DNA of 33,553 bases, taken from contig NZ_AUPM01000037.1 of assembly GCF_003265365.1 (NCBI RefSeq), positions 1 through 33,553 on the forward strand, written 5' to 3'. Below, in pieces: positions 65 to 2,334 of this stretch. Made by a program: the position numbers and the translations under genes. How positions within the stretch are numbered: position 1 is the stretch's first letter; each line of letters opens with the position of its first letter. Below the pieces are notes generated by a model that did no database searches, was not told the DNA's origin, and worked only from the letters and a program-made list of their open reading frames with translations. This DNA comes from Petrotoga sp. 9PW.55.5.1. GTDB taxonomy: Bacteria > Thermotogota > Thermotogae > Petrotogales > Petrotogaceae.

Positions 65-213
65 TTTCTTTTTAGTGAAGTTATTTGAAATTTATTGTGA
101 ATTGATTTGTTTTTTTGATTAAACTCACCTAAATCCCATAAATCATAAGTTGCATATCCTACATCTTTCTTCTTATTAAAGGGTGTAAAAATGTGGTGAG
201 AAAGATAAATTTA
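61..213 (-). pseudogene. Alpha-amylase family (GH13) remnant
   Basis: The minus-strand frame ending at TGA (61-63) reads IYLSHHIFTPF, then KKDVGYATYDLWDLGEFNQK. This matches the conserved N-terminal part of bacterial alpha-amylases, where a DVGY-x-x-YDL-x-DLGEF-x-QKGT motif follows a beta strand ending in LPP. An in-frame stop lies just upstream (211-213), there is no start codon or ribosome binding site, and the frame ends about 18 codons after the motif. What is left is an internal fragment of about 45 codons. The motif recognition is from family knowledge; decay is inferred from the missing ends. Confidence 0.55.
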
Positions 214-277
214 GTTGTTAATTGTGGTGCTAATTAATTATATTCGAACGTTTTTTTGTTATAGCTAAATAAACAAA

Positions 278-325: not shown

Positions 326-2260
326 CTATTTAAGTTTTTCTTGAAGTTGTGCAATTTGTTCTTGAGTTAACCCTACTTTTTCTGTGAGGTATCTTATAGC
401 AACTTGTTTTATATTTGAGTCATCAACTGGTTTGCCGTTGTTTATTTCTTTGAATAGATCTGCTATTATTTTTTCAATTGCATCATAAGATGGGGTACCA
501 GGTTTTACATGGAAGTAGTTTTCATAAGATTTGACATAATCTTTATAAATTTCTTCAACAGACGCATCCATGACTGCCTCGAGTAAAGCAACTGTAATTC
601 CAGCCCTATCTTTTCCTTCGACACAATGTATTAAATAAGGGGGTTCTTTTTCTACCATAAACAACAGCCCTTCTCTTAACTTGTTAGCAAAATCTTCACT
701 CATTGGATCGACTCCCATGTTTAAAGCGATTAAATTACCTTTTTCATATATTGATCTATAGTAATCAGAATATGGTAGATTGTTTAGTAATTCTTCTTGA
801 GAATCTGATAAATTAATAACTGTTTTTATGCCAGCTTTTTCCATTAATTGGCTAGCATAAGGTGAACGTGGATCATCGATAGATGGATGAGAAGATCTGT
901 ACAGTTTTCCTTTTTCTATTTTTCCAACAGTTACCTCACGGAAATTTGCAAATACTTCATCACTTTCATAATCTTGCCTATTATTAGTTTTTACTAGATG
1001 ACGAATTTCTAGTTCCGATTTGTAGGCACCTTTTTTTATTAGTTGAATTGTCACAAGGTCTCCGATTTCTAAACCATAAGTTTGACCAAAATTCCCATAA
1101 TTGATAGCTAATGTTAAATAATTATCCGATATTCTGATTAAAGGTTTCCCTCTATCAACGTCTCCATAAGTGGTGACAAAAGGTGCTTGGATGAGATGGT
1201 TGTTCGCTTTTATTAATACGATGTCTCCAACTTCAAACCCTTCTTTAGTTAAAGCTTCTGCAGGTATATCAGTTCTTACGTTCCCATATTTATCGATTTG
1301 ATTTACAGTTCCTGAAACTTCTGACAGTATTTTTGTTAATTTTATTGTCCATTCTGGACCAGAATAAACACCGTAGATTTCAGAAAAATTATCCATGTTT
1401 ATGGCGACAGATACATTTAGCAGACTATTATAATATATTAAGTTATCTCCTTCAGGAACATCCCCGAAACTACGGACAAATGGCATTTCGCCTTCAAAAA
1501 CTAAATTATTATCTTCAAAGATTTCTACATAAAATAGGTCACCATACTGAGGATTTAACATCTCAAAGAGTTCGTCAGGAATGTTAGACCATACGTTTCC
1601 ATATTGGATGTCTAATACCGGAATATTTCCTATAACCGTATTTTCTTGGATAGTAGGTTTTTGGTAAGGTATCGTGACTATGTCGCCTTCAAGTACAGGT
1701 CCTACATCTTCGAATTTGATTTGTCCAGAAGCTAATCTTGCTCCAACATACGCAAAAATATCTCTTCCATGGAAAGTATATGATTTCTCAGAGCCAGGCA
1801 ATGTATTTTTTTCTACATCAATTATTCTTACCTCTTCAATTCCCATATCTTCAGCTACTAAGCTGAATAATCCATTATCAGGTCCTACTAAGTAGTAACC
1901 CGTCTTTGTTTTTAATACAATAGGATTTCTTTCAGTACCAACTCCAGGGTCTACAACAGAGACAAAGACTGTGTTTGTAGGCCAGTACTCGACTGTTTGT
2001 TTGAGACGATAAGCGCCCTCCCAAACACTAAACGCAGGAATATCATGAGTAACATCAAACATTCTTAAATCGGGATCAACTCCAAATGCTACCCCTTTCA
2101 TTGCAGAAACGGCTCCATCTTTTAAGCCAAAATCAGTTAAAAAAAGTAAAGCATTTGGACGCCCATCCGCAAACAACATGCTTAGTGTTGATAAAATGAC
2201 CAACAAAGCAACAACAACTTTTGTAAAACTTGAGTTTTTAGAACCTTGACATTTTAACAT
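326..2260 (-). CDS. Exported SAM hydroxide adenosyltransferase (DUF62) with duplicated C-terminal domain, fused to a tyrosine-phosphatase-type domain
   Basis: The protein is 644 residues from the ATG at 2260; a GTG three codons upstream sits inside the AAGGGGG ribosome binding site, so I reject it. Residues about 14-31 form a hydrophobic signal segment, implying export. An N-terminal DUF62 domain follows with LTDFGLKDG, DVTHDIP, VVDPGVG, GPDNGLF and FHGRD. Family members hydrolyse S-adenosylmethionine to adenosine and methionine. Two related C-terminal modules come next, each with YGNV, an N/D-IP-x-E stretch, F/Y-GDV and AIN(M/Y)-x-NF-x-x-x-YG. The last 200 residues carry YRSSHPS and the P-loop signature HCVEGKDRAG (catalytic Cys about 546), typical of the Y_phosphatase3/dual-specificity group. 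The usual DUF62 protein is about 260-300 residues with one C-terminal module. The gene stands alone, between decayed fragments of other genes. Domain calls are secure; the physiological substrate of either half is unknown. Confidence 0.9.
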   Translation of the reverse strand: MLKCQGSKNSSFTKVVVALLVILSTLSMLFADGRPNALLFLTDFGLKDGAVSAMKGVAFGVDPDLRMFDVTHDIPAFSVWEGAYRLKQTVEYWPTNTVFVSVVDPGVGTERNPIVLKTKTGYYLVGPDNGLFSLVAEDMGIEEVRIIDVEKNTLPGSEKSYTFHGRDIFAYVGARLASGQIKFEDVGPVLEGDIVTIPYQKPTIQENTVIGNIPVLDIQYGNVWSNIPDELFEMLNPQYGDLFYVEIFEDNNLVFEGEMPFVRSFGDVPEGDNLIYYNSLLNVSVAINMDNFSEIYGVYSGPEWTIKLTKILSEVSGTVNQIDKYGNVRTDIPAEALTKEGFEVGDIVLIKANNHLIQAPFVTTYGDVDRGKPLIRISDNYLTLAINYGNFGQTYGLEIGDLVTIQLIKKGAYKSELEIRHLVKTNNRQDYESDEVFANFREVTVGKIEKGKLYRSSHPSIDDPRSPYASQLMEKAGIKTVINLSDSQEELLNNLPYSDYYRSIYEKGNLIALNMGVDPMSEDFANKLREGLLFMVEKEPPYLIHCVEGKDRAGITVALLEAVMDASVEEIYKDYVKSYENYFHVKPGTPSYDAIEKIIADLFKEINNGKPVDDSNIKQVAIRYLTEKVGLTQEQIAQLQEKLK

Positions 2261-2334
2261 GTAATGCACCCCCTTATATAATAATGATATTTATATTAGA
2301 TATTTGGTAATCAAATCTTTGAAGTTTTTCTCAG

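Follow-up and report, generated by a model that had tools for sequence, protein, structure and literature searches.

A single gene of the window, by which we mean the whole stretch of DNA analysed (33,553 nucleotides from the heat-loving bacterium Petrotoga sp. 9PW.55.5.1), encodes a protein in which two families otherwise found apart have been joined, namely a DUF62 hydrolase of the predicted exported type (N and C domain, hereafter N-C1) and a cysteine phosphatase that carries a DUF62 C domain of its own (hereafter C2-phosphatase). On balance, we regard it as probable that this is an exported two-enzyme fusion derived from two signal-bearing proteins, which would salvage or clear adenosyl compounds and phosphorylated ones in the envelope. 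The gene, for which the sequence-only reading had given no strand, is a single uninterrupted frame on the minus strand, and its parts are as follows.

326-2260, minus strand: complete fusion reading frame, 644 aa, with ATG at 2260
326-2269, minus strand: the same frame from an alternative start, GTG at 2269, 647 aa
2168-2260, minus strand: predicted signal peptide, residues about 1-31 (hydropathy and alignment of exported homologues)
1700-2146, minus strand: SAM_HAT_N, the DUF62 N-terminal domain, residues 39-187 (Pfam E 7.6e-54)
1346-1630, minus strand: C1, a SAM_HAT_C domain of the exported-hydrolase clade, residues 211-305 (Pfam and C-domain tree)
1028-1327, minus strand: C2, the SAM_HAT_C module of the C2-phosphatase family, residues about 312-411
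332-928, minus strand: Y_phosphatase3 domain of the atypical lipid phosphatase type, residues 445-643 (Pfam E 2.8e-16)
599-628, minus strand: phosphatase P-loop H545-C-V-E-G-K-D-R-A-G554, fitting HCXXGKDR[TA]G (PMC3091653)
278-305, minus strand: hairpin of 11 pairs followed by a T-run, resembling an intrinsic terminator by its match to the consensus

Pfam and hydropathy bear out the earlier reading that a signal segment, a DUF62 N-terminal domain, two C modules and an HCVEGKDRAG phosphatase share one frame. In the fusion protein SAM_HAT_N scores 181.9 bits against a Pfam cut-off of 26.3, SAM_HAT_C matches two stretches (123.3 bits against 25.5, whole-protein E 5e-36), and Y_phosphatase3 reaches 60.7 bits against 22.2. 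The doubt originally attached to the significance of the phosphatase match and of the second C module is thereby settled, since SAM_HAT_C also exceeds its cut-off in standalone homologues; C2 alone as query, moreover, finds solved structures of the DUF62 fold (best E 8e-11). An AlphaFold model of the full protein, built from 7 sequences, is usable over the DUF62 part, where its best PDB match is 2zbu (E 4e-24), and has a pLDDT below 50 over residues 415-552, so that it gives no statement on the structure of the phosphatase. At the N-terminus, an n-region with Lys precedes a hydrophobic core of 16 residues and an LFA/DG site, the mean Kyte-Doolittle value across a 12-residue hydrophobic stretch being 3.07, and close homologues have the same layout, with a hydrophobic stretch and a cleavage-like site right before the first DUF62 strand. 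Both lines support the earlier claim of export, and the fusion protein is accordingly predicted to leave the cytoplasm. Directly 3' of the stop codon stands the terminator-like hairpin. Further downstream (window 112-273) lie short interspersed repeats, three pieces of which recur in intergenic DNA near the orthologue of a related genome, G020 (L043 5743-7160), and one elsewhere in the window's own genome, G000 (C38:70405-70458).

The four-module architecture is also present in G020, a member of the same family (95% identical; main contig of 2,053,097 bases), and in three Fervidobacterium MAGs (67-73% identity), which gives a continuous fusion frame in five genomes of two Thermotogota families, one of them a single-contig chromosome. 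Between G000 and G020, dN/dS amounts to 0.039 for N, 0.072 for C1, 0.093 for C2 and 0.057 for the phosphatase, and by this measure every module of the fusion is under strong purifying selection. That a sequencing or assembly error joined two genes, which the sequence-only reading had named as a possible refutation and which the position of the gene close to a contig end might suggest, can be dismissed with near certainty, because the same frame recurs in other genomes and each module is constrained (dN/dS 0.04-0.09). In further genomes of the Fervidobacterium family, the large frames reported at DUF62 resembled additional fusions, and turned out to be ordinary genes of 252-254 aa. The DNA homology of G019, which is closely related to G020, ends at residue 311, exactly at the C1/C2 junction, and its C1 contains an in-frame TAA; two species of the window's own genus retain only C2 fragments with stop codons (L046 3303-3434 in G033, C37:9283-9450 in G034). 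The fusion gene is thus patchy and sometimes decaying. The remnant in G033 sits just after a ribonucleotide-reductase-like gene. Across genera, we found no conserved neighbourhood of the fusion. Outside Thermotogota, the distribution was sampled through one contig scan, plasmids, phages and E. coli; on plasmids and phages the search recovered only the N-C1 half, except that Photobacterium and one unclassified phage weakly matched the phosphatase half, and no C2-phosphatase relatives were found in viral contigs.

A tree of 56 C domains (102 columns, with weak detail inside clades) groups the fused C2 with standalone C2 domains (98/89); the fused C1 joins the family of exported N-C1 proteins (100/99). 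The two C modules, first read as a tandem duplication, are hence not each other's closest relatives. That a single ancestral DUF62 protein duplicated its C1 internally and later acquired a phosphatase would explain why C1 and C2 are 36% identical, but is very improbable in view of the grouping of C2 with its standalone counterparts rather than with C1, and of the signal peptides that standalone C2-phosphatases themselves possess. Because C2 is no duplicate of C1 and both halves exist as standalone proteins, the gene originated by fusion of two pre-existing exported proteins.

By domain content and tree placement, the first half (residues 32-310) is a member of the exported DUF62 subfamily (HP0709/E. 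coli type). The N-domain tree unites the fusion at 99/99 with exported proteins of Tissierella, KSB1, E. coli, H. pylori and Aeromonas, a clade that also takes in signal-less proteins of Listeria and Enterococcus. As an exported protein, N-C1 alone occurs in Tissierella praeacuta (321 aa, about 70% identical), a KSB1 MAG (308 aa), Aeromonas and E. coli (58% identity), and an H. pylori contig filed as phage (57%), where the gene adjoins mraW. An exported DUF62 protein had at first been taken as exceptional, a view that does not stand, as exported homologues are found in H. pylori, Aeromonas, Tissierella and 2374 of 5426 complete E. coli genomes. The E. coli gene, annotated as SAM hydrolase/SAM-dependent halogenase family and absent from K-12 MG1655, is located between yigE and uvrD (L064 7998-8900; L141 5049-5951), where it constitutes a presence/absence polymorphism of about 1 kb. 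N-C1 relatives without a signal are found in Listeria, Enterococcus and Staphylococcus. In the latter two, a three-gene ECF transporter follows directly downstream, comprising a riboflavin-type S component, EcfA and EcfT (L066 7989-11990, L139 4495-8521), and genes resembling ECF subunits are likewise found in the vicinity of DUF62 genes in the Fervidobacterium family (L142-L145). Importers beside the cytoplasmic cousins in Enterococcus and Staphylococcus are consistent with an externally derived substrate.

Within this half, D104, R111 and H164 correspond to D68, R75 and H127 of PH0463 in an alignment with 1wu8, from which the PH0463 numbering was recovered exactly, and all three residues are present in every DUF62 protein compared. 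The PH0463 triad has been tied to hydrolysis (PMC4859513, PMC10491745) and is lacking in halogenases (PMC10491745), so that water, not halide, is the predicted nucleophile here. An alternative assignment with Trp80 in place of the triad Arg was ruled out, as PH0463 R75 maps to R111, which is present. The homology to chlorinase and fluorinase could still speak for action on some other 5'-modified adenosine, or for halide as the nucleophile, yet we consider this unlikely: the triad missing from SalL and fluorinase is complete, and the fluorinase model TIGR04507 (NCBIfam) yields 87.5 bits, far under its cut-off of 400, which places the protein outside the halogenases. From these residues the first half is predicted to hydrolyse SAM to adenosine and methionine. 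Hydrolysis of (R,S)-SAM has been doubted as the physiological role even of a cytoplasmic enzyme by the authors who studied StDUF62 (PMC12120602).

The second half likewise exists independently, as a protein of about 350 aa with signal peptide, C2 and phosphatase in 16 other Thermotogota genomes from three families (L005-L017, L052-L054); most of these are 57-65% identical to the fusion over residues 310-644, and two are 50% identical. Five of the 16 genomes (G036, G037, G042, G043, G044; completeness 80-94%) gave no match to SAM_HAT_N, and in most members of genus g12 the only DUF62 protein is a cytoplasmic one. With N-C1 alone in some bacteria and C2-phosphatase alone in others, each half therefore occurs without the other. 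The P-loop, HC[VL]EGKDRAG, is kept in all 20 proteins checked, one of which shows one conservative change. Its general form, HCXXGKDR[TA]G, is the signature of atypical lipid phosphatases active on phosphoinositides, in which Lys and Asp are functional (PMC3091653), and residues 425-644 contain no WPD motif of classical tyrosine phosphatases. As the triad D104-R111-H164 and the loop HCVEGKDRAG are both intact, both halves are predicted to be active. A Photobacterium gene (L068 4701-5807) carries Y_phosphatase3 behind a carbohydrate-binding-like N-terminus and is flanked by alpha-glucosidase-type and glycogen-debranching-type genes; it may encode a laforin-like glycogen phosphatase.

Neighbours and further fusions offer hints on what the second half may act upon. 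In G017, and in no other of the 103 Thermotogota genomes, a C2 module is joined to a 5'-nucleotidase, forming a protein of 632 aa with signal peptide, SAM_HAT_C, Metallophos and 5_nucleotid_C (L039 2396-4294). In G020, the fusion is preceded on its own strand by an RNase H gene and, upstream of that, by the gene of an exported 5'-nucleotidase, the gaps measuring about 20 bp, and in eight genomes of genus g12 a PAP2 membrane phosphatase gene follows the C2-phosphatase. Such arrangements point to extracytoplasmic phosphate and nucleoside chemistry, leaving the choice between nucleotides and lipids undecided. A phosphatase half that works on envelope lipids or inositol phosphates, like MptpB and its Listeria homologues, and that has nothing to do with nucleosides, deserves tentative consideration: its P-loop is the one that defines the phosphoinositide-active family, and the PAP2 gene would suit a lipid substrate. 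However, the PAP2 link is restricted to one genus, and the attached SAM_HAT_C, employed on a 5'-nucleotidase as well, points to nucleosides instead.

What C2 contributes can be approached through the fluorinase, whose C domain contacts the ligand by Asp210 (methionine amine), Asn215 (adenine amine), Ser269/Arg270 (methionine carboxylate) and Arg277/Ala279 (adenine) (PMC1282579). Across 15 C2 sequences, the Asp and Asn of this contact are invariant, Ser or Thr occupies the Ser269 position in 13, Tyr is invariant at the Ala279 position, and neither Arg270 nor Arg277 is retained, which also holds for the DUF62 hydrolases in the comparison. At the positions of Phe213 and Phe254, which we place in the pocket of the fluorinase, these sequences keep an aromatic residue; ligand-type residues in the C2 of the fusion are D323, Y325, N327, Y365 and N387. 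This conservation fits a retained adenosyl-type pocket, and fold constraints could produce the same pattern. Our boldest suggestion, which we put forward as speculative, is that the C2 barrel constitutes a portable, exported adenine-nucleoside recognition module, taken from the C domain of a SAM hydrolase, which would guide several unrelated extracytoplasmic phosphatases, one a cysteine phosphatase and another a 5'-nucleotidase, towards substrates of the adenosyl type; the fusion would then belong to an envelope pathway, so far undescribed, for recovering adenosine and methionine from adenosyl compounds outside the cell. DUF62-type enzymes are oligomers in which both domains touch the ligand. 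It is conceivable to a like degree that the role of C2 is purely structural or one of oligomerisation, serving to array the phosphatase domains, in which case the fusion would simply co-display a pair of unrelated envelope enzymes that have no substrate in common; the existence of C2-phosphatase in genomes without any DUF62 N domain and the unconserved neighbourhood across genera agree with such a role. Against it stand the D, [YF], N and Y contact positions, which are invariant or nearly so and which a scaffold would not need, unless the fold itself requires them.

The explanation that we favour, an exported enzyme pair in the envelope, would then work as follows. Two proteins, each with its own signal peptide, were presumably joined into one, and the periplasm or the toga space would be where both halves work. 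In the first, water activated by Asp104-Arg111-His164 would cleave an adenosyl sulfonium, either SAM itself or the (R,S) epimer, outside the cytoplasm, which would release adenosine and methionine. The second (residues 311-644) would act as a cysteine phosphatase through a phosphocysteine intermediate, with Cys546 and Arg552 and with Asp551 or Asp518 as the probable acid, whereas its C2 barrel, having lost the catalytic partner domain, most likely became a ligand-binding or assembly module; the phosphatase would dephosphorylate a ligand that C2 holds or positions. Against this explanation it weighs, besides the mainly cytoplasmic place of SAM and the doubt raised over (R,S)-SAM hydrolysis, that the P-loop type is known from phosphoinositide phosphatases, not nucleotidases, and that the links to 5'-nucleotidase amount to one fusion and one gene cluster. 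The sequence-only reading had also proposed a substrate shared by the two halves. None is needed, since N-C1 and the phosphatase half are each found singly, the latter also in genomes that lack SAM_HAT_N altogether, so that the phosphatase step need not be tied to SAM; the fusion in two families nevertheless keeps a shared substrate in play and, the halves being separate in other bacteria, hints at related molecules handled outside the cell.

SAM is mainly cytoplasmic, and the exported DUF62 proteins are located where their presumed substrate should be scarce. Exported members occur in H. pylori and in nearly half of the complete E. coli genomes. The natural fusion to a phosphatase, and a C domain used again on a 5'-nucleotidase, provide a concrete and testable hint that this subfamily may belong to extracytoplasmic nucleoside metabolism.

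Both halves belong to known families, while the fusion, the C2-phosphatase and the C2-5'-nucleotidase appear new, as descriptions of them were not found in the open-access papers searched. The closest known counterparts of the first half are the exported DUF62 proteins of the H. pylori HP0709 and E. coli type, which share the signal peptide, SAM_HAT_N with the D-R-H triad and one SAM_HAT_C (the E. coli protein at 58% identity across residues 14-311), but stop after C1 and thus lack both C2 and the phosphatase. PH0463, MJ1651 and the Thermotoga maritima protein 2zbu possess the same domain pair and catalytic triad, but are cytoplasmic, of about 255-273 aa, with a single C domain and no phosphatase. 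Conversely, the standalone Thermotogota C2-phosphatases lack SAM_HAT_N and C1. Finally, MptpB and its Listeria homologues (PF13350) share the P-loop HCXXGKDR[TA]G and a Pfam match over the cut-off, but carry no SAM_HAT_C module, whereas here a phosphatase domain of ~220 residues is fused to DUF62 parts.
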